Source: Chloroflexota bacterium (GTDB lineage Bacteria > Chloroflexota > UBA6077 > FW602-bin22 > JAMCVK01). Taken from it: DNA of 44,625 nt. The notes under the pieces are model-generated. The model was not told the origin of the DNA. It saw only the letters and a list, made by a program, of their open reading frames with translations, and did not search any database. Position 1 is the first letter of the stretch. Every line of letters begins with the position of its first letter. Shown here one piece after another: positions 3,882-22,655 of this stretch. A program made the translations under genes and the position numbers. The DNA lies in assembly GCA_023475225.1 (NCBI GenBank), contig JAMCVK010000033.1:1767-46391 (forward strand), read 5' to 3'.

Positions 3882-4991
3882 TCAGTAGCGGGTGGTGAGC
3901 ACCAGTGGCCACCGCAAAGACATAAGCGCGTTGTCACGGGTAAAAGCGCGACAGCTTGGCCGGTAGGTGCAAGCCACCTCGGTGTCTGAGGCGCCGCTAT
4001 GACAAGGCCGGCAGCCAGCAGCGCCGGCCAACCAACACAACGAATCCAGCAGCGCCATGGGGAAGCCAGTGCGCTGGTGCAGGGCGCGGAAGACCCACAC
4101 GGTAAAAGCGCGGAACTCCCGCTCCATGCTCGACCCCGGCGGGATAAGGCTCCGTGCCACCAGTGTGTCAGCTAGCACCTGATCTGGCTCCAGCACCCCC
4201 AGGCGCATGAAGAAGAAGGGGATATAATAGTCGGCCGCCCCTTCCAGGTGGTCTAAGTCGGCGAAGTCGGTAACTGCCGCGTACTCGGCGGAGGTTTCGA
4301 GACCGATATCCCGCCGCTCCACGAGCATCTTGGTGAAAATCATGGGGAGTTTGGCAAAGGGCCAGTCGCCGAAGCTCAGCGGGAAGTGCGTCAGCATGAT
4401 TTGGATCAGCCCTTGACCATCAGGGCGAAAGAGCTGACCACCAGCCTGATGGAGGAGGTTGATCACCTGCCCACCGAAGAGCTCACGAAGGACACGTCCG
4501 GTCTCGCGGTACTTGTCCAGACGAGAGCCGACCATCTGAATAGTGGTGGTGCCAGTGGCTTCGTCGCGGTATAAATGTTCCACGTCGCTGCTGCTGATCT
4601 GCGCCAGGTAGTCAGCGTCCAGCACTGGCATGCCCTCAGCCAACGCCCACATGTGACAGGCGCATATGGCCTCGAAACCCCACCTGGGCACACCACCAAC
4701 CTGGGCCTGCCAGGCCACCACGTCGCCGTCCTGGCTACGTGTCCAGATGACGAAGCTCTGGGTTGAGACAACGAAGAGGAACTGAAGGGTGTCGGCATCG
4801 TTCGTGGCTGGTACGGTGCCCGGGTGCCTGGCCGGGTCAATCCAAAAGGGAGGGCGCAGGCTACCTTGGGTAACGGAGCGGAAATCTGCGGCGAGGCGAT
4901 TCAAAGCCGTTTCATTGGAGCGAAGATGGCGTGCTGAGGCGACGATGTTATCGATCTCTTCCCAGAGGGCGGCATGGCTGAAAGTGTTCAA
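3882..4991 (-). CDS. queuosine salvage family protein (Qng1/DUF2419-like)
   Basis: This is a predicted member of the queuosine-5'-phosphate N-glycosidase family, which releases queuine (a 7-deazapurine base) for tRNA modification. About 369 residues, close to the family's usual 330-350. Visible family features are a strand-rich opening LQFLFVVSTQSFVIW, then RWGFEAICACHMWALAEGMPVLDADYL, SSSDVEHLYR, the ETGRVLRELFGG segment, and a C-terminal segment with MALLDSLCWLAG. The C-terminus is unusually rich in Cys (GCRPC, ACTYRPSC). The start is placed at TTG 4991, after AGAGGGG. The upstream ATG at 5042 lies between the promoter -10 and -35 and cannot be used. It is first in a minus-strand operon with the ABC importer. 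I recognise the family by remembered motifs, not by alignment. Confidence 0.72.
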   Translation of the reverse strand: MNTFSHAALWEEIDNIVASARHLRSNETALNRLAADFRSVTQGSLRPPFWIDPARHPGTVPATNDADTLQFLFVVSTQSFVIWTRSQDGDVVAWQAQVGGVPRWGFEAICACHMWALAEGMPVLDADYLAQISSSDVEHLYRDEATGTTTIQMVGSRLDKYRETGRVLRELFGGQVINLLHQAGGQLFRPDGQGLIQIMLTHFPLSFGDWPFAKLPMIFTKMLVERRDIGLETSAEYAAVTDFADLDHLEGAADYYIPFFFMRLGVLEPDQVLADTLVARSLIPPGSSMEREFRAFTVWVFRALHQRTGFPMALLDSLCWLAGAAGCRPCHSGASDTEVACTYRPSCRAFTRDNALMSLRWPLVLTTRY

Positions 4992-5009
4992 TATGTCCCC
5001 TCTCTTGCG

Positions 5010-5032
5010 ACTGGTATGTTGGTCATACCAGT
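5010..5032. promoter_or_regulatory. palindromic operator O1 (probable GntR site)
   Basis: This is a perfect inverted repeat: ACTGGTATG, spacer TTGGT, CATACCAGT. It lies directly downstream of the -10 box of the minus-strand queuosine-salvage promoter, where a bound repressor would block transcription. The same 9-base half-sites recur at 5109-5131 on the other promoter. TGGT...ACCA half-sites are typical of the FadR branch of GntR regulators, one of which is encoded next door. Confidence 0.8.
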
Positions 5033-5062
5033 AGTATAGCATAAATTCCTCCCCATTGTCAA
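5033..5062 (-). promoter_or_regulatory. sigma-70-type promoter for the queuosine-salvage/ABC importer operon
   Basis: On the minus strand, TTGACA (5062-5057) is followed by an 18-base spacer and TATACT (5038-5033). Transcription would start inside operator O1 and give a leader of about 35 bases before the TTG start at 4991. Confidence 0.75.
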
Positions 5063-6123: not shown

Positions 6124-6711
6124 ATGTCAAGGACGCCTTCAGGGGAAAGGAGAATATCGTTCCGTTATTCGGTAGCGGAAATCGTGCTACTGGCTGTTCT
6201 AGGTGTGGTGTTTGGGGTCGCCAACGTGTTCTTCGGAGCGCTGCCTCAGTGGGGTGGGGCGCTGCTGGGGCCACTATTCGCCGGCCTGCTCGGCGGGTTT
6301 GTGCAGATCAGTCAGGTCTTGGGTGGCTATATCGTTCGCCGCCCCCTTGCAGCCACGCTAACCATGATGATTAATGTGACAACGCAGTTTCTGGCAGGCA
6401 ACCCAGCGGGGATCATCCTGTTCCCGTTTGGAGCTGCACAGGGCCTCGGCGCGGAGGTCGTCTTCGCGAGTACGCTCTATCGCAACTTCACCTTGCCCAT
6501 CATGTTGCTGGCGGGTGGGATGGCCAGTGTTGGCTCACAGCTGATGTTCATCGTGTTCTTCAGATGGGATCCGACCACTGGCCCGTATATTGCCTCCGTG
6601 GGCATCGCTCTCGTGGCCGGCATTATCGAAGCTGGCTTGCCTGCTTGGCTGCTGGCCAAGGGACTGGAGCGCACCGGTCTAATCGCAAACATCATGCGGC
6701 AGAGCGCGTAG
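6124..6711 (+). CDS. ECF transporter S component, YkoE-like
   Basis: This is the membrane-embedded substrate-binding subunit of a group I ECF importer, 195 residues, with about five or six hydrophobic segments. The pattern resembles YkoE, the S component assigned to hydroxymethylpyrimidine/thiamine: VLGVVFGVANVFFGAL, then GGYIVRRPLAATLTM, a GNPAG segment and AAQGLGAEVVFA. A strong AAGGAGG lies nine bases before the ATG. It is followed by a 272-base gap containing a hairpin, then the ATPase and T genes, so the module is S-AA-T. No TPP riboswitch core is visible upstream, which weakens a strict thiamine-precursor role. Being upstream of an amidohydrolase operon, it may instead import a pyrimidine-, purine- or hydantoin-like compound. 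Confidence 0.8.
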   Translation: MSRTPSGERRISFRYSVAEIVLLAVLGVVFGVANVFFGALPQWGGALLGPLFAGLLGGFVQISQVLGGYIVRRPLAATLTMMINVTTQFLAGNPAGIILFPFGAAQGLGAEVVFASTLYRNFTLPIMLLAGGMASVGSQLMFIVFFRWDPTTGPYIASVGIALVAGIIEAGLPAWLLAKGLERTGLIANIMRQSA

Positions 6712-6920
6712 TCGCCTCTCGGTTGCAGGCACCTTTCGATACCTGTCAGTCAGCAGTAGAATGGTCGGCACAAACGTCGTGGGGGGAGGGTGCGCCACGC
6801 CGTGATTCGTGGACGAGGGGTCTTAGAAAAGCGTAGCGTGGTGGCCCTCCCACCAAGTTGTGCTACACTGCGAGATACTTTGTTGAGCTGGGGAGGATGA
6901 TCTCTGGCTGCGATCGGTAT

Positions 6921-6949
6921 TGCCTGCCCCAAGCGTTGGGGCGGAGGCA
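6921..6949 (+). terminator. hairpin between S-component and ATPase genes (attenuator-like)
   Basis: CCCCAA (6927-6932), loop GCG, TTGGGG (6936-6941), extended by TGCCT (6921-6925) pairing with AGGCA (6945-6949). A run of five T follows at 6957-6961. It stands 23 bases before the ATPase start and may lower expression of ATPase relative to S component. The rest of 6712-6920 holds no gene I can support. Confidence 0.45.
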
Positions 6950-6983
6950 GGAAGGGTTTTTGTGTCACTAGAAGGGGGTCATT

Positions 6984-8702
6984 TTGAGTGTTGTAATCGA
7001 AATAAGTGGACTGAACTACAGTTACCCGGGCACGGACTTGCAAGTTCTGAAGGACATCAACCTGACCGTTGAAGATGGCGAATTCGTATTATTGGTTGGC
7101 CCTTCAGGGTCTGGCAAGAGCACACTGTTACAAACTCTTAACGGTATCATCCCCAAAGTAAAGGGTGGCCAGCTTTCTGGGCGCATTGTAGTCAACGGGC
7201 TTGATGTAGCGGAGCATGAAATCGCCAGGATGGCTGAACATATCAGCATGGTGTTTCAGGATCCAGAAAGCCAGCTTACTAGCGTGTTTGTTCTGGATGA
7301 GGTTGCCTTCGGTCCCGAGAACTTTAAGCTCGAACGTGCAGAGATCCTCAGGCGCGTCGACTCAGCACTGCATTATGTTGGTCTGCCAAACACGCATGAC
7401 CGATATGTCTACGAGCTATCCGGTGGACAGCAGCAGAGGCTGGCGATCAGTTCAGTGCTGGCGATCGACTCCAAGGTCCTGGTTCTTGATGACCCGACGG
7501 CCAACCTTGATCCAGTCGGCACCGCTGAGGTGTTGAATGTGTTGAAGCACTTACGTGAGGAAGGGCGAACGGTCATTCTGGCCACCCACTGGCTGGATGA
7601 GTTCATTCATCTGGCGACTAAGCTGATCGTGCTTGATGATGGAGCTGTTTTCGCTTGCGGCGAACCGCGTGAAGTGCTCGATAAGTACGGCGCTGCGTTG
7701 GCGGAAGAAATGGGTATCTGGGTGCCAGAACTCGTAGAGGTTGAGATGGCCCTTCGTAGGAAGAGGGGTGTTGCCAATGGTGTGGTGCCGCTTACGGTTG
7801 AAGAAGCCCTTGAGAAATATAAGACATTCAGCTTTGACCCCACCAGATTTGAGCCTTTGATACGCCCTCGTGAGGGGAATGGAGGCTACATTTTAGAAGG
7901 TACCAACTTGGCCTTCACCTATCCCGACGGGACCAATGCTTTGTACGACATCTCATTTAAGGTCAAGGACAGAAGTCTGACCGGCATCCTGGGTCCCAAT
8001 GGGGCTGGCAAGAGCACACTTGCTTCTATCATAGTTGGCCTGCAAAGACTCAGAGAAGGTCAATTAACATTTCGAGGCGAGAGTGTCAAAGATATGAACG
8101 TCGACCAGTTGGCGCGACGTATGGGTTTTGTTTTTCAGAATCCCGAGCACCAGTTCGTACGCGACACTGTACGCGATGAGATCGCCTATAGCCTTGAGGT
8201 GCTGGGTAAGTCGCCTGAGGAGATTCAGTCCGGTGTTGATGAAATGTTGACTTTGCTGAAGCTCAAGCACCTTGAACATCGACACCCCTTTGGGCTTAGC
8301 GGCGGTGAGAAGCGCCGTCTAAGCGTAGCTGTTATGCTGGTTTCGCACCCCGAACTCCTGATTCTGGATGAGCCCACCTATGGTCAGGATCGCAACCACG
8401 TTCGTAATATCATGAAACTAGTTCAAGCCCAGCTTGACCGGGGTGTGACTGTACTCATTATCACCCACCAGATGCGTTTGATAGAGGAATACGTCGAAGA
8501 TGTGTTGATTCTAAACTCGGGTAGGGTGCTGTACCAAGGCCCACCTGAGGACATGTTCGCCCATCTTGGGGATCAACGGGACGTAACCCTTAGGGAGCCA
8601 CATCTACAACGCCTAATCAGGCACCTAAGGACTCTAGGCAAGGATATTCACCCTCACACGCGCACTGTCCAGGAGCTCGTAGACCAGATTGTGTTAATTT
8701 AG
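6984..8702 (+). CDS. ECF transporter, fused double ATPase (YkoD-like)
   Basis: This is a cytoplasmic energy-coupling protein of 572 residues with two ABC ATPase domains in one chain. Domain 1 (about 1-250) has Walker A GPSGSGKST, signature LSGGQQQR, Walker B VLVLDDP and H-loop ATH. Domain 2 (about 285-540) has GPNGAGKST, LSGGEKRR, LILDEP and THQ. The catalytic Glu after Walker B is Asp in domain 1 and Glu in domain 2, so the two ATP sites are unequal. The start is TTG 6984, six bases after AAGGGGG; no ATG or GTG gives a better N-terminus. It works with the S component upstream and the T component 21 bases downstream. Confidence 0.93.
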   Translation: MSVVIEISGLNYSYPGTDLQVLKDINLTVEDGEFVLLVGPSGSGKSTLLQTLNGIIPKVKGGQLSGRIVVNGLDVAEHEIARMAEHISMVFQDPESQLTSVFVLDEVAFGPENFKLERAEILRRVDSALHYVGLPNTHDRYVYELSGGQQQRLAISSVLAIDSKVLVLDDPTANLDPVGTAEVLNVLKHLREEGRTVILATHWLDEFIHLATKLIVLDDGAVFACGEPREVLDKYGAALAEEMGIWVPELVEVEMALRRKRGVANGVVPLTVEEALEKYKTFSFDPTRFEPLIRPREGNGGYILEGTNLAFTYPDGTNALYDISFKVKDRSLTGILGPNGAGKSTLASIIVGLQRLREGQLTFRGESVKDMNVDQLARRMGFVFQNPEHQFVRDTVRDEIAYSLEVLGKSPEEIQSGVDEMLTLLKLKHLEHRHPFGLSGGEKRRLSVAVMLVSHPELLILDEPTYGQDRNHVRNIMKLVQAQLDRGVTVLIITHQMRLIEEYVEDVLILNSGRVLYQGPPEDMFAHLGDQRDVTLREPHLQRLIRHLRTLGKDIHPHTRTVQELVDQIVLI

Positions 8703-8723
8703 TACAGAGAGGAGTAATCTGTC

Positions 8724-9539
8724 ATGAGAATAACCGATCACATTGCGTTGCATTACCTGCGTAAGGACTCACCGGTCCACGATATGGATGCCTTGAGCAA
8801 GTTATTTGTGGTGATCGTGATTAGCTTTGCGCTGTACATGTTCCAAACGCCATGGCAACTTGCCCTCTACTTGCTGTTGCTATTTGGGATTGCCCTTTTT
8901 TTGGTCCGCGTTGAACCGCTCACCGTCTTCTTCACTTTTGCCATCTTCATCATATTTGGTTCCTTCGTGTTCTTTTTCCAACTGTTGGGACATCCCGAGG
9001 GCAATGCCTATCTAGTCTTAGGACCCATCCGGATCACGAACTGGGGCTTGTATAATGCCGGAATATTCCTGTTTCGCATGTCGAGCATTGGTTGCGCGGC
9101 GTTATTGTATCTGTGGACCACCAAGCCCAAGGACTTCGTGGTTGGGCTGATCAAGTTGGGTGTGCCGTATCGCTTTGGCTTTGCCGTGCTGGTTGCGCTG
9201 CGGTTCCTGCCACTCATCAACGATGAGGTGCGCAAGGTACGCGACGCGCACACTATCCGTGGCGTACCGCTTGGCTCGGGCGTTAGCAGCGTGGCCGAGC
9301 GCTGGATGCGTTACCTCTTTCCGGTACTGGCCAGCGGTATGCGCAAGGCTGAGACGGCTGCTATGGCTATGGAGAGTCGCGGATTCGGCCTGTATTCTGG
9401 CCGCTCCTACATAAATCCATTCCAGTGGACACGGTCTGGCCTTGCACTACTAGGCTTTGTGATTGTAATGACAATTGTGCTGGGAGCCCTAGGCGGCTTC
9501 CAATACATGCAGCCACGCTACGATCAGATAATTCGATAG
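8724..9539 (+). CDS. ECF transporter T component (EcfT/CbiQ family, YkoC-like)
   Basis: This is the transmembrane coupling subunit, 271 residues, that links the double ATPase to the S component. It has several hydrophobic helices in the first half, then the two cytoplasmic coupling motifs of the family: AHTIRG around residue 178 and AMAMESRGFG around residue 217, both of the A-x3-RG type that inserts into the ATPases. AGAGGAG precedes the ATG with good spacing. It completes the first S-AA-T module, and the SDR gene follows after 26 bases, so transport and catabolic genes probably share a transcript. Confidence 0.92.
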   Translation: MRITDHIALHYLRKDSPVHDMDALSKLFVVIVISFALYMFQTPWQLALYLLLLFGIALFLVRVEPLTVFFTFAIFIIFGSFVFFFQLLGHPEGNAYLVLGPIRITNWGLYNAGIFLFRMSSIGCAALLYLWTTKPKDFVVGLIKLGVPYRFGFAVLVALRFLPLINDEVRKVRDAHTIRGVPLGSGVSSVAERWMRYLFPVLASGMRKAETAAMAMESRGFGLYSGRSYINPFQWTRSGLALLGFVIVMTIVLGALGGFQYMQPRYDQIIR

Positions 9540-9565: not shown

Positions 9566-10330
9566 ATGCGATTAGAAGGCGATGTCGCTATTGTGACTGG
9601 AGGGGCATCAGGTATCGGCCGAGCCATTGCTATTCTCTTCTCCCGTGAGGGGGCTAAGGTGGTGGTAGCCGACTTGCAGGAGCACTCTCGACTCCCTTCA
9701 GAAGTACCCACTACAGCCGAGGCTATCTCCCAGGCTGGAGGCCAGGCCATCTTCGTCCGCACTGATGTACGCAAGGCTGGAGATATCGATCGACTGGTGC
9801 AGACCACCCTGGACACTTACGGCCAGGTGAGTATACTGGTGAACAGCGCCGGTGTGTTTGTTCGTAACCCCATCACTGAGGTCTCTGAAGAGGAATGGGA
9901 CAATGTGCTCTCCATAAACCTGAAGGGCTATTTCCTCGCCTGCCGGCGGGTGATCCCAGAGATGCTGAAGCAGGGCGGGGGGAAAATTATCAACATCTCC
10001 TCCATCCACGGGCTGCTGGGTACCGGCATAGCCACCACCTACTGTGCCTCCAAGGGTGGGGTGGAGAACTTAACTAGACAACTGGCGGTGGACTACGCCC
10101 GCAAGGGGATCTATGTCAACGCTATAGCCCCGGGCACGATCAAAACGGCCATGTCCAAGCCCTTCCGCGAGACGCCGGAGATATTGCAGGAATATCTCTC
10201 CCGCACCTTGCTGCCCCGCTTGGGAGAGCCAGAGGATGTGGCCTATGCGGCCCTATTCCTGGCCAGCCATGAGTCAGACTTCGTGGTTGGCCACACCCTC
10301 GTGGTGGATGGCGGCTGGACTATCTGGTGA
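9566..10330 (+). CDS. short-chain dehydrogenase/reductase (SDR)
   Basis: This is a classical SDR of 254 residues that oxidises or reduces an alcohol/carbonyl with NAD(P). The Rossmann glycine motif is TGGASGIG near the N-terminus, with acidic VVVADLQE after strand 2 (suggesting NAD preference), the NSAG motif, catalytic Ser in INISSIHG, and Tyr/Lys in YCASKGG. It ends with the common VGHTLVVDGGW. AAGGAGG lies seven bases before the ATG. It opens the amidohydrolase/FdrA operon and lies seven bases from the next start. The substrate is not predictable. A second, unrelated (zinc) dehydrogenase lies in the same operon, so two redox steps on one compound are plausible. Confidence 0.92.
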   Translation: MRLEGDVAIVTGGASGIGRAIAILFSREGAKVVVADLQEHSRLPSEVPTTAEAISQAGGQAIFVRTDVRKAGDIDRLVQTTLDTYGQVSILVNSAGVFVRNPITEVSEEEWDNVLSINLKGYFLACRRVIPEMLKQGGGKIINISSIHGLLGTGIATTYCASKGGVENLTRQLAVDYARKGIYVNAIAPGTIKTAMSKPFRETPEILQEYLSRTLLPRLGEPEDVAYAALFLASHESDFVVGHTLVVDGGWTIW

Positions 10331-10337: not shown

Positions 10338-11717
10338 GTGGTGTACGATCTTGCCATTAACAATGGTCTGGTAGTCAACGCTGACGGCCAATTCCAGGCC
10401 AGTATCGGCATCCGCAATGGAGTCATCGCCACGATTAGCAGCACCGAGTTGCCTGCCCAAGGGGTCATCGACGCCGCAGGCAAGCTGGTCATGCCCGGCG
10501 TCATCGATGCCCACGCCCATTTCGACCTGCAACAAGGACAAGGGCCTGATGCCGCCCGTACCTGTGATGATTATGTCAGCGGCCCTCGGGCGGCAGCCTG
10601 TAGCGGTGTTACTACCTTTATCGACTTCGCCATCCAGAAGCAGGGCCAGCCAGCGCGTCGCGAGCTGGAGGGGCGCATCGCCCGGGCGAAGGAGGGCTCC
10701 GGCATCGATTTCTCCTTCCACGCCGGCATAACTGACGCCTCGGACGAGACCCTGTCGGAGCTAGCCTCTATTATGGAGATGGGGGTGCCCTCCTTTAAGT
10801 TTTTCCTGACCTATAGGAGATGGGGTTTCGCGGTGGATCTGGGCTTCCTCTACGCCGCTATGGCCGAGATTCGTAAGAAGGATGGTGTCGTGGCCATCCA
10901 TGGCGAACACGATGAGATCGTGGAGTACTTGCGCGAGATGTATCATCGTCAGGGGAAGCGAGAGATGATTTACCATTCTCTCAGCCGCCCCGATTTCAGC
11001 GAGGAGATCTGCTTCCAGGAAGCCATCCCGCTGGCGCGAGAGACCGGGGTGAAGCTCTACTTGGTACATGTTTCTACCGAGAAGGGATTGCGGGCTATCA
11101 CTGCTGCCCGATGGGAAGGCGTCAGGGTGTACGCTGAGACCTGCCCCCATTACCTGGCCTTCACCGCTGAGGTCTACCGCCAGGAGGATGGTGTCCTCTA
11201 CACCATGACCCCACCGCTGCGCCCTCCGGGAAATAGAGAGGCTCTCTGGCAGGGAGTGGTGGATGGACGCATCGATGTGGTGGCAGCCGATCACAATAGC
11301 TTCTCCCGCCAGCTCAAGCCCAAGTCCAGCAGTTATATGGATGTAGCCCCAGGGGTGGCCAGCACGCCGACACTATTGCCTTATCTCTACACGACGGGGG
11401 TGGCCGAGGGGCGCATCAGTCCCTCAAGGCTGGTGGAGTTGCTCTGCGCTAACCCGGCTCGCATCTACGGGGTGCCCAACAAGGGGGTCATCGCTGTGGG
11501 TTACGATGCTGATATCAACATCATTGACCCTCAGGCTGAGTTCATCGTGCGGGGCGAGGAGATGGACTTGGGAGAGGGGGGATATACCATCTTCGAGGGC
11601 TGGACCATGCGTGGCCGCCCGGAAATGACCATCTCTCGTGGCCAGGTGGTGGCCGAAAAAGGCCGGTTCGTGGGTCAGATAGGACGTGGCCGCTTTATCG
11701 AACGTGGCTTCGTATAA
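10338..11717 (+). CDS. dihydropyrimidinase/hydantoinase-type cyclic amidohydrolase
   Basis: This is a metal-dependent hydrolase of 459 residues that opens cyclic amides or ureides (dihydropyrimidines, hydantoins, allantoin; related enzymes act on purine rings). Metal ligands visible: HAH in VIDAHAHFD, probable carboxylated Lys in SFKFFLTY, His in AIHGEHDE, His in LVHVST, and Asp in VVAADHNSF, where most relatives have a TDH motif. The C-terminal beta-domain with GYDADINIIDP is typical. The start is GTG 10338, six bases after GAGG; GTG 10341 is equally possible. In this context it is the best candidate for xanthine amidohydrolase, the first ring opening of anaerobic purine degradation, or for an allantoinase-like step. 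That assignment is inference. Confidence 0.88.
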   Translation: MVYDLAINNGLVVNADGQFQASIGIRNGVIATISSTELPAQGVIDAAGKLVMPGVIDAHAHFDLQQGQGPDAARTCDDYVSGPRAAACSGVTTFIDFAIQKQGQPARRELEGRIARAKEGSGIDFSFHAGITDASDETLSELASIMEMGVPSFKFFLTYRRWGFAVDLGFLYAAMAEIRKKDGVVAIHGEHDEIVEYLREMYHRQGKREMIYHSLSRPDFSEEICFQEAIPLARETGVKLYLVHVSTEKGLRAITAARWEGVRVYAETCPHYLAFTAEVYRQEDGVLYTMTPPLRPPGNREALWQGVVDGRIDVVAADHNSFSRQLKPKSSSYMDVAPGVASTPTLLPYLYTTGVAEGRISPSRLVELLCANPARIYGVPNKGVIAVGYDADINIIDPQAEFIVRGEEMDLGEGGYTIFEGWTMRGRPEMTISRGQVVAEKGRFVGQIGRGRFIERGFV

Positions 11718-11736: not shown

Positions 11737-12480
11737 GTGATCATCGACCAAGATAAATGCACCCGTTGTATCCAATGTATGCCCTATTGCCCTGTGGGGG
11801 CTATCGTTGTAGACAAGGTTAACAAGAATATAGTTATTGATCTGGATAGCTGTGTGGAGTGTGGCACATGCTTGAGGGTGGACATCTGCCCCGAGGATGC
11901 CCTGGTGCAACAGTCCCTTACCTGGCCTCGCACTATCCGCAGCGCCCTTAGTAATCCCCTGGTAGTGCATCGGGACACGCGCATCCCCGGTCGGGGCACC
12001 GAGGAAATGAAGACCAACGATGTCACTGGACGGTATGGACCGGGCGTGGTGGGGATGGCCCTGGAAATGGGGCGGCCGGGAACCTCGACCAGCTTCCACG
12101 ATATACAGCGGGTTACCCAAGCCCTGGCTGCCTTAGACATCGATTTCGAGCTCCAGAATCCCCTGACTATGCTTATGACTGACAGGGATAGGGGCACCTT
12201 CGACCCTGAGATCCTGGACGAACGGGTACTATCAGCTATTATCGAGTTCGATATCCCTTTGAGGGGAATACCAGAAGTCATGGCCGTGATACAGCAGGTG
12301 GCCCAGGAGATCAGCACGGTCTTCAGCCTGAACATCTGTGGGCTGGTGGAGCGGGATGGCAGACAGCCCTCGCTAGGGATATTGATGGCTTTGGGCATAC
12401 AGCCCTCGCTTAATGGCAAGACCAACGTCGGGTTGGGGCGACCAGCCTTTGATTTCTATGCTAAAAGAGGTGAGGGATGA
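11737..12480 (+). CDS. ferredoxin-domain protein with uncharacterised C-terminal domain
   Basis: 247 residues. Residues 1-60 form a two-cluster ferredoxin: CTRCIQCMPYCP (C-x2-C-x2-C-x3-C-P) and CVECGTCLRVDICP (C-x2-C-x2-C-x5-C-P). The remaining 190 residues are a domain I do not recognise. It starts near GPGVVGMALEMGRPGTSTSF, has a central TDRDRGTFDPEILDERVLSAIIEFD, and ends in a Gly-rich stretch with LVERDG. The start is GTG 11737, after AGGAGGAAG; the upstream ATG at 11686 lies inside the hydantoinase gene. It overlaps the next gene by four bases (ATGA), so the two products probably act together. An electron-transfer or Fe-S enzyme role linked to the dehydrogenases is possible. Confidence 0.75.
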   Translation: MIIDQDKCTRCIQCMPYCPVGAIVVDKVNKNIVIDLDSCVECGTCLRVDICPEDALVQQSLTWPRTIRSALSNPLVVHRDTRIPGRGTEEMKTNDVTGRYGPGVVGMALEMGRPGTSTSFHDIQRVTQALAALDIDFELQNPLTMLMTDRDRGTFDPEILDERVLSAIIEFDIPLRGIPEVMAVIQQVAQEISTVFSLNICGLVERDGRQPSLGILMALGIQPSLNGKTNVGLGRPAFDFYAKRGEG

Positions 12481-13127
12481 GTCACACCTTACACCGCCAA
12501 GGAATGGCAGAGAACCTGACCAACGATTATATCGTCTTCGCCATGTCGGCTAAAGGCATCAACGAGAAGGGGTCAGCTGTTAAGCTTCGCCGCTTTCTGC
12601 AGATGGCTATGGAACATAGCCCCATCAATTTTGGTGATATGAAGACGGGCAATCGCTTCACTCACAGTCTTGAGGAGATTATGGATGGCATTCAGGACGT
12701 CTCCATCGTCCACGCTGTTTTTACAGACCTTGACCCGGTAGTAGCGCTACTGCGTGAGCTGAAGGAGGACGATCTCGGGGTATCGGTAGTGGTGACAGGG
12801 CTGGTGGAACCCGTGGCTGAGTCTTGCCAGCGGGCAGGATTGCAACCCCACACTGTGGAATACTCCCTGGGCATTTGGGGACAGACAGGGTTACTTCCAG
12901 AGCCTTGGGTACTGGAGATCAGTACCATGTGCGGGCATGGCCAGGTGGCTTTCGATCTGGTGCGGAGGCTGGTGCGCCAGGTGGAGCGTGGCCGGATGAC
13001 CGCCGCTGAGGCTGTGATGGAGCTGGCCCGGCCCTGCGTCTGTGGCGTCTTCAACACCGAGAGGGCCAGGCTCCTCATTGAGCGGATGTGCGCCCAACCC
13101 GCTACAGGAGAGAGCAGAGGTGGCTAA
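12477..13127 (+). CDS. uncharacterised protein with conserved-looking Cys motifs
   Basis: 216 residues, family not recognised. The middle looks like an alpha/beta fold (IVHAVFTDLDPVVALLRELK, then VSVVVTGLVEPVAESCQRAG). The C-terminal third has two Cys-containing motifs, STMCGHGQVAFDLVRRL and LARPCVCGVFNTERA, which could bind a metal, an Fe-S cluster or a flavin. No signal peptide or membrane span. The ATG at 12477 overlaps the stop of the ferredoxin-domain gene (ATGA) and is preceded by AGAGGTGAGGG. It overlaps the following zinc dehydrogenase by eight bases. Stop-start overlap on both sides suggests a complex with its neighbours. Confidence 0.65.
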   Translation: MSHTLHRQGMAENLTNDYIVFAMSAKGINEKGSAVKLRRFLQMAMEHSPINFGDMKTGNRFTHSLEEIMDGIQDVSIVHAVFTDLDPVVALLRELKEDDLGVSVVVTGLVEPVAESCQRAGLQPHTVEYSLGIWGQTGLLPEPWVLEISTMCGHGQVAFDLVRRLVRQVERGRMTAAEAVMELARPCVCGVFNTERARLLIERMCAQPATGESRGG

Positions 13128-14199
13128 CAAGTCCAAGGCGGCCGTTTTGGAAGCGCCCCGCAAGATGGTACTTCGCCAGTTTCCTCTCCCCCAGATTGGG
13201 GATAGGGATTTTCTGCTCAAGGTGGAGCTGGTCTCTATCTGTGGTGGCGATCCCATAGAGTATGAGGGCCGTAACGTCAAAACCCACTATCCCTTGATTC
13301 TGGGCCACGAGATGGTGGGCACGGTAGTGGAGGTGGGAGAGCATGCTGCCCGACGATACGGCATCCAGGTAGGCGACCGAGTCAATGTGGAGCCTTATAT
13401 CCTCTGTGGGGAGTGCCGCTACTGTCTCACGGGATACTATCAATTCTGCGAGCGCTCCAGCGTCTACGGCGTCAACATCTCCTGCGCTGAGCCTCCCTAT
13501 CTCTGGGGTGCCTACGCTGAGTATATGTACGGTGCCCCCGGATCAAGGGTTCACAAGCTGGACCCTCAGGTACCTTTGGAGGCTGGGGTGATGACCTCCG
13601 TATTGGGCAATGGCGTGCGCTGGATACGCACCTTGGGAAAAGTGCGTTTTGGGGAGTCGGTAGTGGTGGTGGGTCCAGGGGCGCAGGGGATGGCTACGGT
13701 TATCGCGGCTAAGGAGTCTGGGGCAGCGCCAGTGATCGTTGTCGGGCGTACCCGAAACCCGGCCAAATGGGATCTAATCCGGGAATTCGGGGCAGATCAT
13801 CTAGTGGACCTGGCACGGGAAGTGGATCCTATCGGAGTTGTCTCAGATATCCTGGGGGGACAGCTGGCCGACGTAGTGGTGGAGTGCAGCGGCGCGGCGG
13901 AGATGATGCAGCTGGGCCTGGAGCTGGCCCGTCCTGTAGGACGATACGTACTGACCGGCACCTGTGGCTACGAAAAAGTGTCCCTGATTACTGATCTCAT
14001 CGTCTTCAAAGAGTTGCAGATCCTGGGCGGGTTAGGGCAATCCTGGGATACGGAAGTAGCGGCGCGCCTCATCAACAGCCGTCGCTATGCTATCGAGAAG
14101 ATGATCACTCATGTTTTCCCCCTGGAGCGTGCCGACGAGGCGATACGTTTCTTCATGGAGAAGCGAGGCGAAGTGATTCGCGTGGCCATCAAGCCCTAA
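13120..14199 (+). CDS. zinc-dependent alcohol/sorbitol-type dehydrogenase (MDR)
   Basis: This is a medium-chain dehydrogenase of 359 residues. The N-terminal GroES-like domain has catalytic zinc ligands Cys in VSICGGD and GHE in ILGHEMVG. The structural zinc site is CGECRYCLTGYYQFC. The Rossmann domain has VVVGPGAQGMATV, a slight variant of GxGxxG. The start is GTG 13120, six to twelve bases after GGAGAGAG; it overlaps the upstream stop, so the two are coupled. The ATG at 13042 lies inside the preceding gene and is rejected. It probably oxidises a secondary alcohol of the operon's substrate. Threonine-, sorbitol- or theronate-type specificity cannot be separated by eye. Confidence 0.9.
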   Translation: MANKSKAAVLEAPRKMVLRQFPLPQIGDRDFLLKVELVSICGGDPIEYEGRNVKTHYPLILGHEMVGTVVEVGEHAARRYGIQVGDRVNVEPYILCGECRYCLTGYYQFCERSSVYGVNISCAEPPYLWGAYAEYMYGAPGSRVHKLDPQVPLEAGVMTSVLGNGVRWIRTLGKVRFGESVVVVGPGAQGMATVIAAKESGAAPVIVVGRTRNPAKWDLIREFGADHLVDLAREVDPIGVVSDILGGQLADVVVECSGAAEMMQLGLELARPVGRYVLTGTCGYEKVSLITDLIVFKELQILGGLGQSWDTEVAARLINSRRYAIEKMITHVFPLERADEAIRFFMEKRGEVIRVAIKP

Positions 14200-14218: not shown

Positions 14219-15787
14219 TTGCCTGTCAAAGATCTGATCAAGCACGATACTTATCAAGACTCCGTATTCCTTATGCGGCTGGCCCAAGAAATATCCCAAA
14301 TGGAAGGAGTGCAGGTGGCCTCAGCCCTTATGGCCACGCCGCAGAACAAAGAAGTATTGAAAAATACATCGCTGTTGACGCCAGATGCAGAGAGGGCAGG
14401 ACCCAATGACTTAGTCATAGTGGTGGCAGCCACATCAGCAACCATAGCCGAGGAGGCGCTGAGACGTGCTGAGGAACGCCTGGTCACCATTCAGGTGCCT
14501 GCCCGGGAGACAGGAATGGCGACCGTGCTGCCGCGCAACCTGGATGGTGCCTTACGACGCTGGCCTCAGGCCAATCTGGTGTCTATCTCCACACCAGGGC
14601 CGTATGCTGCGGCCGAGGCCCTCAAGGCCTTAAAGAGGGGATTACATGTTTTCCTTTTCAGCGATAACGTCTCACTGGAGGACGAATTGATGCTGAAGCG
14701 AAGGGCTCAGGAGTCTGATTTATTGGTGATGGGGCCCGATTGTGGCACGGCTATTATTCGGGGTGTTCCCCTGGGCTTCGCTAACGCCGTACGGCGGGGA
14801 ACTATAGGACTGGTGGCTGCCTCAGGCAGTGGACTACAGGAGGTGACCTCCCTCATCCACAACTGGGGAGGGGGCGTCTCCCAGGCTATTGGGACAGGCA
14901 GCCGCGATCTACACGGGGAGATCGGGGGCATCAGCATGCGCATGGGCATCGACGCTCTACAGGAGGATGATGATACGAAGGTGCTGGTCCTGCTTTCCAA
15001 GCCCCCTGAGCCCCGCGTAGCCTCGGCCATCTTGGATCATATTGCCACAGCCTGCATCTCCGTAGTAGTCTGCTTCCTGGGCGGGGACCCCGCCGATATT
15101 CAAGCCAGGGACGCTTTGGCAGCTACTACTCTGGAGGAGGCAGCCTGGCTCGCCGTCTGCCTGAGTCAGGGCTGGGATATGACCTCTCCACTGCCGTCGG
15201 AAGACCTCTCGGACACAGCGGCTGCCCAGCGTAGGGGGTTCTCGCCGGAACAGAGGTATATTAGCGGTCTATTCTCTGGGGGCACTCTCTGCTATGAGGC
15301 CATGCTCATCCTGCAGCGGGTGGGCCGTATTCCTTACTCTAACGTTCCCCTGAGGCCAGAATGGGCCTGGTCGCCCTCCAGACCAGTAGCCAGCGATCTG
15401 ATTCTGGATCTGGGCAGCGATGAGTTCACGGTGGGGCGGCCTCACCCTATGATTGACTTCCGCACACGTCTCGCCTATCTGAAGGGAGCTGGGCAAGACC
15501 CTCAGGTGAGGGTCATATTGCTGGATGTTATCTTAGGGTATGGTGCTCATCCAGATCCAGCGGGCGAACTGGCGCCGGCCATTGCGGACGCTAAAGATCG
15601 CGCCGGCGCTGAAGGCCGCTCGTTGGCGATCGTGGCCTCGATCTGTGGAACAGACGACGATCCGCAAGGGTTCCTGGCCCAAAAAGAGAAACTGCAACGA
15701 GCAGGTGCAGTGATCGCTCCAACCAGTGCCCAGGCAGCGCGGTTGGCGGTGGCGATAGCTGTCGACGATGGGGCAGGCGGAGTATGA
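14219..15787 (+). CDS. fdrA: FdrA family protein (acyl-CoA synthetase-like; carbamoyltransferase component)
   Basis: 522 residues, similar in size to E. coli FdrA (about 555). It has the succinyl-CoA-synthetase-like architecture: a CoA-binding-like N-terminal half with ANLVSISTPGPYAAAEALKA and LLVMGPDCGTAIIRGVPLGFAN, the glycine-rich VAASGSGLQEVTSLIHNWGGG, and a C-terminal ligase-like half with ILDLGSDEFTVGRPHPMID. In E. coli, FdrA together with YlbE and YlbF has been reported to form the oxamate carbamoyltransferase of allantoin degradation. Here it overlaps a YlbE homologue (ATGA) as expected. The start is TTG 14219, about ten bases after GGAG. It may convert a ureido compound to carbamoyl phosphate. 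No YlbF or carbamate kinase gene is visible. Confidence 0.85.
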   Translation: MPVKDLIKHDTYQDSVFLMRLAQEISQMEGVQVASALMATPQNKEVLKNTSLLTPDAERAGPNDLVIVVAATSATIAEEALRRAEERLVTIQVPARETGMATVLPRNLDGALRRWPQANLVSISTPGPYAAAEALKALKRGLHVFLFSDNVSLEDELMLKRRAQESDLLVMGPDCGTAIIRGVPLGFANAVRRGTIGLVAASGSGLQEVTSLIHNWGGGVSQAIGTGSRDLHGEIGGISMRMGIDALQEDDDTKVLVLLSKPPEPRVASAILDHIATACISVVVCFLGGDPADIQARDALAATTLEEAAWLAVCLSQGWDMTSPLPSEDLSDTAAAQRRGFSPEQRYISGLFSGGTLCYEAMLILQRVGRIPYSNVPLRPEWAWSPSRPVASDLILDLGSDEFTVGRPHPMIDFRTRLAYLKGAGQDPQVRVILLDVILGYGAHPDPAGELAPAIADAKDRAGAEGRSLAIVASICGTDDDPQGFLAQKEKLQRAGAVIAPTSAQAARLAVAIAVDDGAGGV

Positions 15788-17223
15788 GGATGTCCAAAAT
15801 GCAGCAACTTCTATCCGACAAACCCCGGCTGATCAACATCGGACTGAGATCCTTTGCTGACGGAGCCAGGCAGAGGGGAGCGGAGGTCTTCCCTCTGGAT
15901 TGGCGCCCGCCGGGGCGGGGGGACGCCTATCTAGCCCGTCTGGTGGCTCTTTTGGCCGACGATGATGCTGGACCAGGCGCAGCCGTGGCCGCGGCTAACC
16001 GGATAGCCCTCCAGAGGCTCAGCGAGTCCCAGCCCGTCTGGGTGGATGTCCAACCTGCCCGCCAGGCCCTGGCTGATATGGACGACCATACCATCCTGCA
16101 CGCCGGTCCACTCGTGGCCTGGGAGGATATGTGCGGCCCCATGCGAGGTGGCATCATCGGTGCCCTCATTTATGAGGGACTGGCCGGTGACCCCAAGGAG
16201 GCCAAGGCGCTAGCCGGCAGCGGTCAGGTGCAGCTCGCCCCCTGTCATTCTCGCTATGCTGTGGGACCCATGGCCGGGATAATCTCTCCCTCTATGCCTG
16301 TCGTTGTGGTGCGCAACGAGGCTTATGGCAATGTGGCCTTCGCCACCCTGAATGAAGGTTGGGGCCGAACCCTCCGCTTCGGTGCTTATGATGAGGCAGT
16401 AATGGCCCGACTCAAGTGGATGGAGCAAACACTGGCGCCAGCCCTGAAGAAAGCCATCAAGCATCTGGGTGGTATCAATGTCAAGAGCATCACCGCCCGA
16501 GCCCTACAGATGGGAGATGAATGTCATAATCGGGACCTGGCAGCTACGGCGCTGCTCTTCAAAGAGCTTGCCCCTGCCCTGGCGGCGGTCAACCTGCGGG
16601 GAGGGGTCCTGCGAGAAGTACTGCATTTCCTGTCCCAACAGGAACACTTTTTCCTCAACATCTCTATGGCTGCCTGTAAAGCCAGCCTCCACGCTGCTGC
16701 AGGGCTCAGCAACAGCACTCTAGTCACTGTTGTAGCCCGCAATGGGGTGGAGGTGGGTATACAGGTGAGCTGTAGCGGCGAGCGCTGGTACACGGCCCCG
16801 GCCACCATACCCCTGGGCCTTTTCTTCCCTGGCTATTCTGAGGGTGATGCCAATCCTGATCTAGGCGACAGCGCTATCTCAGAAACGGCTGGTATTGGTG
16901 CCTTCGCTATGGGCGCGGCCCCGGCTATCGTCCAGTTCGTGGGCGGCACCCCTGAGGATGCCCTGCGCTTTACCTTAGAGATGTATGAGATAACGTTGGG
17001 CGAGAACCCTCACTATGCGCTTCCACCATTATCTTTTCGTGGCACCCCCACCGGCATAGATATCCGCAGGGTAGTGGAGACGGGCATAGCCCCAGTGGTC
17101 AACACCGGTATCGCCCATAAGGAATCCGGCCACGGTCTAGTGGGAGCAGGGATCGTGCCTGTGCCCCTGGAATGTTTCGAGAAGGCATTGCGGGGCGTGG
17201 CTGAGGCCATGAATGTCCACTAG
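15784..17223 (+). CDS. DUF1116 family protein (YlbE-like carbamoyltransferase component)
   Basis: 479 residues. YlbE/DUF1116 family by order and motifs: an N-terminal RPRL-like segment PRLINIGLRSFADGARQRG, the conserved ADMDDHTILHAGPLVAWEDMCGPMRGGIIGA, SRYAVGPMAGIISPSMPV, ALQMGDECHNRD, a C-terminal TGIAHKESGHGLVGAGIV, and conserved Cys and His residues in these stretches. The ATG at 15784 overlaps the FdrA stop (ATGA), the usual FdrA-YlbE coupling. It is known as the partner of FdrA in E. coli oxamate carbamoyltransferase. The physiological substrate in this operon may be another ureido compound produced by the hydantoinase-type enzyme. Confidence 0.88.
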   Translation: MRMSKMQQLLSDKPRLINIGLRSFADGARQRGAEVFPLDWRPPGRGDAYLARLVALLADDDAGPGAAVAAANRIALQRLSESQPVWVDVQPARQALADMDDHTILHAGPLVAWEDMCGPMRGGIIGALIYEGLAGDPKEAKALAGSGQVQLAPCHSRYAVGPMAGIISPSMPVVVVRNEAYGNVAFATLNEGWGRTLRFGAYDEAVMARLKWMEQTLAPALKKAIKHLGGINVKSITARALQMGDECHNRDLAATALLFKELAPALAAVNLRGGVLREVLHFLSQQEHFFLNISMAACKASLHAAAGLSNSTLVTVVARNGVEVGIQVSCSGERWYTAPATIPLGLFFPGYSEGDANPDLGDSAISETAGIGAFAMGAAPAIVQFVGGTPEDALRFTLEMYEITLGENPHYALPPLSFRGTPTGIDIRRVVETGIAPVVNTGIAHKESGHGLVGAGIVPVPLECFEKALRGVAEAMNVH

Positions 17224-17236
17224 AGGAGGACAGGCG

Positions 17237-18337
17237 ATGAAAGCGAATCTGTATGATCTCCTAAACGAGCTAACACGCATTCCAGCTGTATCCGGAGCCG
17301 AACAGGGTGTGGTCACCTACTTGAAGTGTGCCTTCGCAGAGTCGGCTGACGAGGTACAGGTTGACCCCATGGGCAACCTTACAGTCACACTCAAGGGGTT
17401 CGCCCAGGGACCACGGGCGATGCTGGTAGCCCACGCTGATGAGGTGGGTGGCATAGTGCGGACCATACTCCCCAACGGCTACCTCCGCTTCCAGATCCTG
17501 GGTTTCGTAAGCGATAGCATCTTGCCCGCCAGTCGGGTCTTGATCGGAGGGGAAGTCCCCGGAGTCATAGGTGCGCAAACAGCCTATCTGGAGGATCCCG
17601 CGGACAAGGATCGGGTCAAAACTATAGCAGAGCTCTTCATAGACGTTGGTGCTCATAGTGAGGAGGAAGCCCGTCGCTGGGGGATTCGCGAGGGCGATCC
17701 GCTGACCTTCGTCGGCGAGCTTTTCCGCATGAAGGATCCGGACCGAGTTTGTGGCAAGGCCATCGACAATCGCATCGGCTGCGCGCTACTTATCGCCCTG
17801 TTCCAGCTGCTGGCGGGAAAAGAGCTACCGCTTAGCCTTCACGCTGTGGTCACAGTGCAGGAGGAGACGACCATGAGCGGGGCCCAAATGGCCGCTATCA
17901 CCCTCCGTCCGGACTTCGCTATCGTCGTGGACACCGTTCCGTCTGATGATACCCCAGCGGTATGGCCACCCGACCAGCCCGCCCTCATTCTGGGAAAGGG
18001 CCCGGTGATCCAACTGGCAGAAGGAGTGCGGCCAGCCTATGTAGGCACCTTGGCCCACCCGGGCATCAAACGGCTGATCATCGATACCGCTGAGACCCAT
18101 CATATCCCCTATCAATTATCGGCCATGTATGGCTACTGGACCACCGATGCGGCCCGCATACACCCTCAGGCGGGAGGGATACCCACTGGTTTCATCTCCG
18201 TGCCTCGGCGCTACGCCCACTCCCCTGTTGAAGTGCTGGACCTCAACGATGCTGTCTACGCCTTGCAGCTCCTGGAGGCCCTCGTGCTGCGAGCTGATAT
18301 CCGCGATTATCTCCACTTCATATCCCCAGAAAAGTAG
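17237..18337 (+). CDS. M42-type metallopeptidase (glutamyl aminopeptidase/endoglucanase M family)
   Basis: 366 residues, normal for M42. Co-catalytic metal ligands are visible: His and Asp region in VAHADEVGG, Asp in KAIDNRIGC, the catalytic Glu pair in VQEETTMSG, Asp in IVVDTVPSDD, and a late His in RRYAHSPVE. M42 enzymes form tetrahedral cytoplasmic dodecamers that remove N-terminal residues from peptides. The start is ATG 17237, seven bases after AGGAGG; the ATG at 17213 lies inside the preceding gene. It is the last gene of the FdrA operon and lies 13 bases downstream of DUF1116. Such a peptidase is unexpected here; it might hydrolyse an N-acyl or N-carbamoyl amino acid made by the pathway. 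Confidence 0.9.
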   Translation: MKANLYDLLNELTRIPAVSGAEQGVVTYLKCAFAESADEVQVDPMGNLTVTLKGFAQGPRAMLVAHADEVGGIVRTILPNGYLRFQILGFVSDSILPASRVLIGGEVPGVIGAQTAYLEDPADKDRVKTIAELFIDVGAHSEEEARRWGIREGDPLTFVGELFRMKDPDRVCGKAIDNRIGCALLIALFQLLAGKELPLSLHAVVTVQEETTMSGAQMAAITLRPDFAIVVDTVPSDDTPAVWPPDQPALILGKGPVIQLAEGVRPAYVGTLAHPGIKRLIIDTAETHHIPYQLSAMYGYWTTDAARIHPQAGGIPTGFISVPRRYAHSPVEVLDLNDAVYALQLLEALVLRADIRDYLHFISPEK

Positions 18338-18455: not shown

Positions 18456-19274
18456 ATGGAGGGTCAGGCGGTGGGATTCTTCACCATCGGGGAGGTGGGG
18501 AGAATGGTGGGTGTAAGTCAGTCTACATTGCGCCTCTGGGAGCAGAGGGGGTTGCTTAAGCCCGCTCGCCGCAACGGTAACCACCGCCTTTATTCCCCTG
18601 ACGACATTAACCTCCTGAAGAAGATAAAGTATCTTGTCCGCGCAGAGGGGTTGAACCTGGCCGGTGTGCGTCACACGTTGAAGCAGGAGGGAGAACCATT
18701 GCCTGCTGTCGAGCCGACGGCCGCTCATGTCGCTGGCATTGGAGCTAAACTGCGGACCCTGCGCACGGAGCGCAAGCTCACCTTAGCCGATGTTTCCAGG
18801 CTTACAGGTCTATCGATCACCTTTCTCAGCCGCGTTGAGACCTCCAAAGCGAAGATCTCTGTGTCCACACTTCAGAAGCTGGCCGTCTTTTACCAGAAAA
18901 ACCTTCTCTATTTCTTTGAGGGGCTGAGTGTAGCTGGGGCTGCTTTGATTCGGGCTGAGGAGCGACGCGTTCTGGAAACCTCAGAGCGGGCGGTGAAGAT
19001 GGAGCTACTCGTAGGCGTCCCGGAGTTCGTGATGGAGCCGATACTTTTCACCGTTAAGCCTGGAGGCGGTAGCGAGGGTTCATACTCCCATGAGGGTGAG
19101 GAATTTCTCTTCATGCTAGAAGGTTGCCTGGAGATGTGGTTGGATGAAGCCGAACGATATGTATTGAAGCCCGGCGACAGCTTGTACTTCCGCAGTACGC
19201 TTGCTCACCGCTGGAAGAACAGCGGGCAAAAGGATGCGGTGATCCTATGGGTGAACACACCACCTACGTTCTGA
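18456..19274 (+). CDS. MerR-XRE-cupin fusion transcriptional regulator
   Basis: 272 residues with three modules. Residues about 5-72 form a MerR-type winged helix (FFTIGEVGRMVGVSQSTLRL, then RNGNHRLYSPDDI). Residues about 91-145 form an XRE-type helix-turn-helix (LRTLRTERKLTLADVSRLTG, then SITFLSRVETSKAKIS). Residues about 190-265 form a cupin_2 barrel (SYSHEGEEFLFMLEG, LKPGDSLYFRSTLAHRWKN). XRE-cupin regulators are common; an added MerR head is much rarer, giving two separate DNA-reading domains and a small-molecule sensor. The ATG at 18456 follows a clear promoter but has a weak Shine-Dalgarno. It stands before the second ECF transporter and the shell-gene cluster and may control them. Confidence 0.88.
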   Translation: MEGQAVGFFTIGEVGRMVGVSQSTLRLWEQRGLLKPARRNGNHRLYSPDDINLLKKIKYLVRAEGLNLAGVRHTLKQEGEPLPAVEPTAAHVAGIGAKLRTLRTERKLTLADVSRLTGLSITFLSRVETSKAKISVSTLQKLAVFYQKNLLYFFEGLSVAGAALIRAEERRVLETSERAVKMELLVGVPEFVMEPILFTVKPGGGSEGSYSHEGEEFLFMLEGCLEMWLDEAERYVLKPGDSLYFRSTLAHRWKNSGQKDAVILWVNTPPTF

Positions 19275-19472
19275 GAAGTACAAGATGATCATTTTGCCAC
19301 CCTTTGGCTGGAAAGGGCACGACTACTGGACAGAGGGTGGAAAGGGGGTGATCATTATGTTTGGCTAGCGATGTCGAAAAGGGTCCCAGGTGTATGTTGA
19401 TCCTTAGCGCGTATCGTATCGGCCAACTGATGTAGAAATGCCCGAATGGGCGGATGAAAGGAGACAGTAAAG

Positions 19473-20042
19473 ATGGCTACAGAGATGGAAGGTGGAGGGT
19501 TGATTCCAAAGCGGATTACTCCCCTCAATTTGATCTTCTTTGCCATTTGGGGAGCATTGACAGGGCTCACCTGGCTACTCACGGCCCCTATCCCTCTGGC
19601 CCCTGGTGCTCTTCATTGGCGCATATTTGCCTTTATGCCCCAGGTGATTGGCATCTTCTTTGGGCCTTGGACAGGTTTCGCCTCCGGCTACCTGGGAACG
19701 TTAGTCTGGGCTATTCTAGGTGGTTATTTCAATGTGATGTCTCCTGTTACAGATGGCATCGGCTGTGGACTCCAAGGCTTGATACCAGGATTGATGATCA
19801 ATGCCTTGCTAGAACCGAACGTGGGTGTCGGAAAGATCGTTCTCTGGTCAACGATCAGCGGCGTGATTATGGTCCCCATCGTGGCCGTCGGGATGTATCT
19901 GGTTGGGATTGTACCCTTCTGGACAGCGATCTACATCCTGATCATTTCGGATCTGCCACCGATCATTATTGCGACACCGATCGTTGTAAGGGCACTAGCT
20001 CCGGCGCTGACGCGGTTAAGCTGGTTGCCTCCCAGGGTCTAA
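19473..20042 (+). CDS. ECF transporter S component, substrate unknown
   Basis: 189 residues with about six hydrophobic segments (LIFFAIWGALTGLTWLL, FAFMPQVIGIFFGPW, YLGTLVWAILGGYF, IVLWSTISGVIMVPIVAVG, FWTAIYILIISDLPP, IIIATPIVV). It is the substrate-binding membrane subunit of a second ECF importer, followed by its own ATPase and T genes. It differs clearly from the YkoE-like protein, so the two modules probably import different compounds. AAGGAGACAG precedes the ATG. A 198-base leader (19275-19472) has two TGATCATT copies but no riboswitch I recognise. Purine or a purine breakdown product is a reasonable guess from the downstream genes. Confidence 0.78.
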   Translation: MATEMEGGGLIPKRITPLNLIFFAIWGALTGLTWLLTAPIPLAPGALHWRIFAFMPQVIGIFFGPWTGFASGYLGTLVWAILGGYFNVMSPVTDGIGCGLQGLIPGLMINALLEPNVGVGKIVLWSTISGVIMVPIVAVGMYLVGIVPFWTAIYILIISDLPPIIIATPIVVRALAPALTRLSWLPPRV

Positions 20043-20067
20043 GCGGCTCTTAGTTTCTATGCGCGAG

Positions 20068-21855: not shown

Positions 21856-22655
21856 GATTAGCTGGCTATATCGAACGACAATCTTTCATTCACCGCCTGG
21901 ACCCGCGATTGAAGTTATTGGGCACACTGGTCATCTCGATATTGGCCTTGCTTTTTTCCACTCCCCTTTCCTTGGGGCTCCTGTTTCTGGTGCTCCCTGT
22001 CGTCTGGTGGTCGGCGAAGATCGGCGACAAGATATTGGACTGGCTGCGAGGGCTCGCGCCCTTGTTCATCATGACCTTTCTTCTCTGGCTCCTCCTGGGC
22101 AGCGGCGGACATGCCAAAATGGGTGGGGAGGCTGAGCCCCTGATCAGTCTCTGGGGTGTAATCACCATTTCTTCGTTCAAAATGAAGTACGCCGTAGCTA
22201 TGGTCATCAGGGTGCTTATCTTGATAACGGTATGTCTCACCTTACTAATGACCACCGATTTCAGCGATATTTTCATAGCCATCAGGAAGATCGGCCTTCC
22301 TTACCGGGCCGCATTCCTCTTATCTCTAACCTTCCAGCTGGCGCCCATCCTAGCCGCCGAATTCCTTATGGTGAGGGACGCTCAAAAGGCACGTGGTCAG
22401 GAGTTAGATAAAGGGAATCTCATAGAGAGGATTAAGAAGAATGTGGGTGTGACTGTCCCCAGCTTCGTAAGGGCCATCCGGCTTGGCTACGACATGAATA
22501 TGGCTCTAGAAACGTTTCGCTTCAGTCGGGCAGGATGCAGAACCTTGTACAGGGACATCCAGTTTGCCCTTCGTGATTACATCGTACTGATCCTGATCAT
22601 GGCCTTGCTGCTATCAGGGCTATGGCTGAGATTGAGGGGATTTGGGGTGGCCTGA
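21852..22655 (+). CDS. ECF transporter T component (EcfT/CbiQ family)
   Basis: 267 residues, the membrane coupling subunit of the second ECF importer. It opens with the family sequence FIHRLDPRLKLLGTLVISI, has several hydrophobic helices, and carries coupling motifs at AQKARGQEL (A-x-x-ARG type) and the degenerate ALETFRFSRAG. The second motif normally reads A-x3-RG and is relaxed here, which may match the relaxed ATPase domain it touches. The ATG at 21852 overlaps the ATPase stop. A short hairpin (22668-22686) follows the gene. Confidence 0.9.
   Translation: MRLAGYIERQSFIHRLDPRLKLLGTLVISILALLFSTPLSLGLLFLVLPVVWWSAKIGDKILDWLRGLAPLFIMTFLLWLLLGSGGHAKMGGEAEPLISLWGVITISSFKMKYAVAMVIRVLILITVCLTLLMTTDFSDIFIAIRKIGLPYRAAFLLSLTFQLAPILAAEFLMVRDAQKARGQELDKGNLIERIKKNVGVTVPSFVRAIRLGYDMNMALETFRFSRAGCRTLYRDIQFALRDYIVLILIMALLLSGLWLRLRGFGVA

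Follow-up and report, generated by a model that had tools for sequence, protein, structure and literature searches.

The window, a stretch of 44,625 nucleotides from a Chloroflexota bacterium (contig JAMCVK010000033.1), carries two plus-strand genes that we call A and B. Gene A (11737 to 12480) encodes 247 residues, a 2[4Fe-4S] ferredoxin head followed by an uncharacterized C-terminal region, and gene B (12477 to 13127) encodes 216 residues of no known family. We placed the start of A at the GTG at 11737, which has TAGGAGG upstream and is better supported than the mechanical start at 11686. B starts at the ATG at 12477, within the plus-strand ATGA (12477 to 12480) that also holds the stop of A, and it ends in TAA at 13125 to 13127. 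The gene that follows, also on the plus strand (13120 to 14199), encodes a zinc-dependent dehydrogenase with ADH_N and ADH_zinc_N matches. It most likely starts at the GTG at 13120 behind CAGGAGAGAG, with an 8-base overlap with B. The overlaps that a preliminary description of this DNA had reported on either side of B are thus both present.

The ECF-type uptake system upstream of this pair (6124 to 9539) consists of an S component (6124 to 6711), a double ATPase (6984 to 8702), and a T component (8724 to 9539). It is followed by a short-chain dehydrogenase (9566 to 10330), whose family was read by eye and whose gene is also present in locus L002, and by a hydantoinase/dihydropyrimidinase-like amidohydrolase (10338 to 11717) that matches Amidohydro_1 and scores 389.8 bits against the D-hydantoinase model, below its cutoff of 393.25. 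After A, B, and the zinc dehydrogenase come FdrA (AllF) (14219 to 15787; 480 bits against the FdrA model, cutoff 433), AllG (15784 to 17223; PF06545, 2.4e-89), and an M42 family peptidase-like protein (17213 to 18337; PF05343). All of these genes are on the plus strand. It had been suggested that A and B substitute for a missing partner of FdrA. We found AllH on another contig (G000:C2:39140-39472, plus strand); FdrA, AllG, and AllH are therefore all encoded in this genome, and we rejected the suggestion. FdrA and AllG accompany A/B in only 3 of 91 loci, and their link to the pair is local. The set of FdrA, AllG, hydantoinase, short-chain dehydrogenase, zinc dehydrogenase, and A/B recurs in L002 and L208, and L178 and L179 carry A/B alongside a zinc dehydrogenase and ECF-like genes. 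Judging from its neighbors, the A/B pair of the window most probably takes part in degrading a cyclic ureide or a related heterocycle.

Farther along the window, a single regulator protein unites MerR, HTH_3, and cupin domains (18456 to 19274), and a 199-residue open reading frame with no Pfam match (19454 to 20053) lies beside a second ECF system. The stretch from 20140 to 29688 holds the second ECF-type ATPase and T component, an isochorismatase-like hydrolase, a formiminotransferase, an adenine deaminase, a cyclase, and a UbiD-like protein that is apparently split over two open reading frames (28030 to 29145 and 29155 to 29688). We read this stretch as a purine/ureide catabolic island. A match to the queuosine salvage protein family lies near it, on the minus strand (3882 to 5042).

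The ferredoxin head of A was confirmed by a Pfam match to Fer4_10 (residues 18 to 69, numbered from the start at 11686; 2.7e-09, above the curated cutoff). Residues 8 to 51 (11758 to 11889, plus strand) contain eight cysteines in the patterns CX2CX2CX3C and CX2CX2CX5C, and from these we infer ligands for two [4Fe-4S] clusters. All eight are invariant in 13 of 13 aligned A proteins. In the larger conservation set of 107 (112 matches minus five short ones), 104 have both cysteine motifs; two of the three exceptions are clipped by contig ends, and in the third, from L192, the first motif is absent from the called protein. The spacing before the last cysteine is X5 in 66 of the 107, and a long insertion is found there in 31. 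Behind the head, residues 60 to 247 (11914 to 12477, plus strand) form a region of about 188 residues (the preliminary description gave 190) without a Pfam match; the best E values were 0.13 in NCBIfam and 0.15 against PDB sequences, and PHROGs returned nothing. This tail is conserved at R65, G85-R86-G87-T88, E90, K92, N94, E110, G112-R113-P114, E170, K228, and N230, and the residues equivalent to G112, R113, E170, K228, and G234 are invariant in all 107 proteins. A single-chain AlphaFold2 model of A had a mean pLDDT of 83.6 and a pTM of 0.81, and the structure matches of its tail were middling and ferredoxin-like only. A weak Foldseek match of A to McrD (E of 0.05, probability of 0.63) was not used.

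We found no match for B in Pfam, curated NCBIfam, PHROGs, or PDB sequences, where the best values were at chance level. The absence of a characterized family for B and for the tail of A, anticipated earlier, therefore held in these databases. To follow conservation and build a tree, we used 108 B sequences (109 matches minus one 25-residue fragment). Eight residues are invariant in all 108 (R7, G135, C152, G153, H154, C187, C189, and N193), and H6 and S130 (107 of 108 each) and H125 (106 of 108) are nearly so. H6 and R7 lie in the HTLHR of residues 3 to 7 (12483 to 12497). Both cysteine motifs noticed earlier are present, STMCGHG at residues 149 to 155 and RPCVCG at residues 185 to 190; the invariant residues C152, G153, and H154 fall in TMCGHG (residues 150 to 155; 12924 to 12941), and C187, C189, and N193 fall in PCVCGVFN (residues 186 to 193; 13032 to 13055), all read on the plus strand. 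The cysteines of both motifs are thus conserved in every B sequence, and C152, C187, and C189, two of which form a CXCG, are the only cysteines conserved in at least 90% of the 108. By analogy with known enzymes, these three would probably hold a cubane cluster with one iron open.

A single-chain AlphaFold2 model of B (mean pLDDT of 87.4, pTM of 0.84) predicts a ferredoxin-like (PII/ACT-like) alpha-beta fold for residues 12 to 110 (12510 to 12806, plus strand). In the model, this part shares its topology with PII-like and ACT-like proteins such as SbtB, CPII, and TM1266. If B acted as SbtB does on a membrane transporter, A/B could be a redox-sensing regulator of an adjacent transporter, and transporters are indeed frequent neighbors of the pair. 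We consider this very improbable. Ferredoxin-like folds are widespread, and the many matches of B were weak, with Z scores not exceeding 7.1, such as unrelated models usually reach, and Foldseek E values of at least 0.05. The PII-like matches barely cover the C-terminal half of B, the half with the invariant cysteines lies outside the PII-like fold, and many A/B loci have no labeled transporter. The Foldseek match to TM1266 itself (E of 0.077) was not used. The VIA-align lists for A and B held common folds only. An origin of the pair by gene duplication was also considered and set aside, as the two proteins showed no detectable relationship to each other (hhalign probability of 0.1).

We then asked how constant the pairing is. 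A lies directly upstream of B on the same strand for 107 of 109 B matches, distributed over 91 loci (79 newly fetched stretches, the window, and L002 to L012; L001, L013, and L027 [the window itself] were left out), and B is never in frame with A. The two unpaired matches are the 25-residue fragment and L195:6109-6720. Recurrence on this scale indicates that the pair is not a product of chance. Among 106 pairs with clear starts, the genes overlap in 40, and in 33 of these the overlap is exactly 4 bases. The divergence of A correlated with that of B (r of 0.79, compared with a shuffled maximum of 0.15), a correlation to which shared descent contributes. The preliminary description had proposed a complex, perhaps a new type of Fe-S enzyme. 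The constant pairing, the overlapping starts, the correlated divergence, and the invariant cysteines support a stop-start-coupled complex of a new Fe-S type; that this complex is an enzyme is our interpretation, argued below.

When 84,980 species genomes were scanned, relatives of B turned up at 11 loci, 37 to 61% identical to it. The record titles of B relatives name Anaerolineales, Anaerolineaceae, Bacillota, Syntrophaceae, Nitrospiraceae, Syntrophobacterales, Dethiobacter, Deltaproteobacteria, Actinomycetota, and Rokubacteria. Within the phylum of the window, B was found in 6 of 400 genomes. It was found in 25 of 247 genomes in the phylum of G407, 20 of 299 in that of G406, 22 of 95 in that of G409, 4 of 295 in that of G404, and 2 of 296 in that of G408, one of the last two only at an E value of 9.4e-4. 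The G407-phylum sample and a second sample comprise the same genomes save the anchor and were not summed. Plasmid records gave no match. Our literature search, which did not extend to bioRxiv and most subscription journals, returned no earlier description of the pair, and the available part of PMC11456536 contains nothing on it.

Several genomes carry many copies. We counted nine A/B copies in G677 and in G436, eight in G407, and eight in G019 (seven in the window-phylum search). Fourteen couples of B genes lie on the same strand within 8 kb of each other and are 37 to 55% identical. Neighborhoods with two or three divergent pairs are common, as in L172, L174, L152, L189, and L214; such neighboring pairs perhaps catalyze sequential steps or form a mixed complex.

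To describe the surroundings of the pair, we named clusters of neighboring genes by reading their sequences and checked one representative of most clusters against Pfam or PDB. The GntR label rests on one representative, and the HYD, FdrA, AllG, M42, and CbiQ labels rest on the window's own proteins. The M29 representative had no match at 1e-10; the M29 label is putative, as are the labels IclR, histidine kinase, s54reg, ThiF, PGDH, and M20. Within 5 kb of B, unlabeled genes gave a baseline of 318 on the same strand versus 214 on the opposite strand. Against this baseline, the genes of tripartite tricarboxylate transporters (Tct) were almost all on the strand of B (34:0 for TctC, 32:1 for TctA, and 21:0 for TctB). 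The same was found for the NAD(P)H reductase NROR (17:0), CooS-like genes (13:0), CooF (13:1), zinc dehydrogenases (ZnADH, 13:1), and AOR (7:1). When we followed the same-strand runs of the 108 B genes, TctA was present in 37, NROR in 16, ZnADH in 13, CooS-like genes in 12, and AOR in 7, and 32 runs contained none of the labeled genes. A caveat is that TctA abounds in the genomes searched, with 284 matches in 22 of them; G000, the genome of the window, has none, and all four TctA genes of G916 are far from its single A/B copy. Context labels followed the B tree, with 38 changes where shuffling gave 63.1 on average (0 of 200 shuffles were as low). The CooS/CooF/NROR labels required 7 changes compared with 16.0 after shuffling (0 of 500 as low), whereas the AOR context showed no such clustering (6 changes, with 5.9 on average after shuffling).

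Two of these runs bear on what the pair does. L172 is a contiguous run of GntR, A, B, TctC, TctB, TctA, A, and B, and L189 reads TctA, TctB, TctC, two A/B pairs, and GntR. Since the remaining genes of these runs encode a transporter and a regulator, A and B are the only candidates for an enzyme there. This matters for the nearest rival to an Fe-S oxidoreductase, in which A/B would be a noncatalytic electron adaptor that wires a neighboring dehydrogenase (for example, zinc ADH, AOR, PdxA, HIBADH, or GlcD) to ferredoxin, CooF, and the NAD(P)H reductase. The ferredoxin head of A agrees with such a role, as do the strand counts given above for NROR, CooF, ZnADH, and AOR and the fusions of B with a CooF-like domain at two loci. 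In L172 and L189, however, the run is limited to transporter genes, a regulator, and A/B. Polar residues other than cysteine are conserved as strictly as the cysteines (R7, H154, and N193 in B and E170, K228, and R113 in A), and invariant residues of this kind are more numerous than a carrier needs. In addition, NAD(P)-linked dehydrogenases are not known to require a carrier of this kind. We consider the adaptor less likely than an oxidoreductase, although it is a stronger rival than either a maturation factor or a regulator.

The two fusions just mentioned are both in genome G006 (L203:126-1367 and L205:3742-5637, both on the minus strand), where B carries the CooF-like domain at its C terminus. 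They form a natural link from B to a CooF relay, and the CooF-like part is a polyferredoxin. CooS-like neighbors were found in L005, L006, L007, L146, L148, L156, L157, L160, L177, L182, L183, L201, and L216. We took their ligand positions from an alignment with CODH-II. All 13 keep the four N-terminal cluster cysteines, and only 4 of 13 keep all six ligands of the C-cluster. Nickel-iron C-cluster ligands are thus lost in nine, which look like CooS scaffolds with an eroded active site. We considered CO as the substrate common to A/B loci and found it unlikely, because the C-cluster ligands are complete in only 4 of the 13 CooS-like proteins; most A/B loci also have no CooS.

The presence of AOR and CooS-like proteins among the neighbors also brings up a maturation or reactivation factor, which would supply a client metalloenzyme, for instance AOR or a CooS-like protein, with clusters or electrons. 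Such factors usually feature an asymmetric Fe-S scaffold, in line with the arrangement proposed for A/B. In contrast, many A/B contexts have no metalloenzyme client, and the occurrence of up to nine divergent copies per genome, each in an operon of its own, fits a substrate-specific role better than a shared helper. We regard this alternative as improbable.

Taken together, A and B recur as a pair in many anaerobic bacteria, next to genes for the import and degradation of organic acids, so that A/B is probably an uncharacterized metabolic enzyme or electron-transfer unit. Between these two, the runs that hold only TctABC and A/B, the paralogous copies, and the invariant noncysteine residues favor catalysis. 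Our preferred reading, held tentatively and with nearly even expectations, is that A and B are the obligate subunits of an Fe-S oxidoreductase of an undescribed family, which would help anaerobes to degrade carboxylates that they import and, in the window operon, a cyclic ureide or a heterocycle related to it. Electrons would pass through the two cubane clusters of A, linking an outside carrier with an active site where A and B touch. The outside carrier would be ferredoxin, a CooF-like protein, and, where present, an NAD(P)H reductase. For the active site we propose a third cluster, with C152, C187, and C189 of B as its only cysteine ligands and one iron open to the substrate. The carboxylate would be bound by H154, H6, R7, H125, and N193 of B and, on the side of A, by conserved Arg, Lys, Glu, and Asn. 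The step catalyzed could be a reductive dehydroxylation, an oxidation, or another reaction. No single reaction covers all contexts of A/B, and different copies may serve different substrates.

A broader proposal, which we think possible though rather doubtful, is that A/B represents a new class of Fe-S enzyme. It would be a ferredoxin-wired heterodimer with an open three-cysteine cluster that performs a redox step on carboxylates, and in anaerobes it would have multiplied into many copies, each specific for a substrate. Some members of the family would have taken over a CO-dehydrogenase-like scaffold, its nickel site lost and its relay cluster alone kept. The unit adjoins uptake systems with mostly unassigned substrates across several named lineages. 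Its reaction, once known, would allow many organic-acid pathways to be assigned together and would show whether two small subunits share an Fe-S active site of a new sort.

Several known systems resemble parts of this unit. Residues 1 to 59 of A are like the ferredoxin of Clostridium acidurici (1fca; Z of 7.9, rmsd of 1.4 over 54 residues, 44% identity). Unlike the bacterial 2[4Fe-4S] ferredoxins, A continues behind this head with its long unmatched tail. AllFGH is assigned as an oxamic transcarbamylase in the accessible part of PMC11326118. FdrA and AllG come after A/B in the window operon, but A and B match none of AllF, AllG, and AllH, and A/B is no part of AllFGH. Gene clusters of Ni-CODH, CooF, and FNOR, along with Ni-CODHs with incomplete active sites, are described in PMC6344411; in the part of that text available to us, the description includes neither A nor B, and nowhere in the text does the word "tricarboxylate" appear. 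The corresponding set of CooS-like protein, CooF, and NAD(P)H reductase also neighbors part of the A/B family, but it is missing from most A/B loci. Finally, B may be compared with enzymes that hold a [4Fe-4S] cluster on three cysteines and carry out aconitase-like chemistry. Although B matched no family of this kind in Pfam or NCBIfam, and the likeness would be one of working only, it shares with these enzymes exactly three conserved cysteines.
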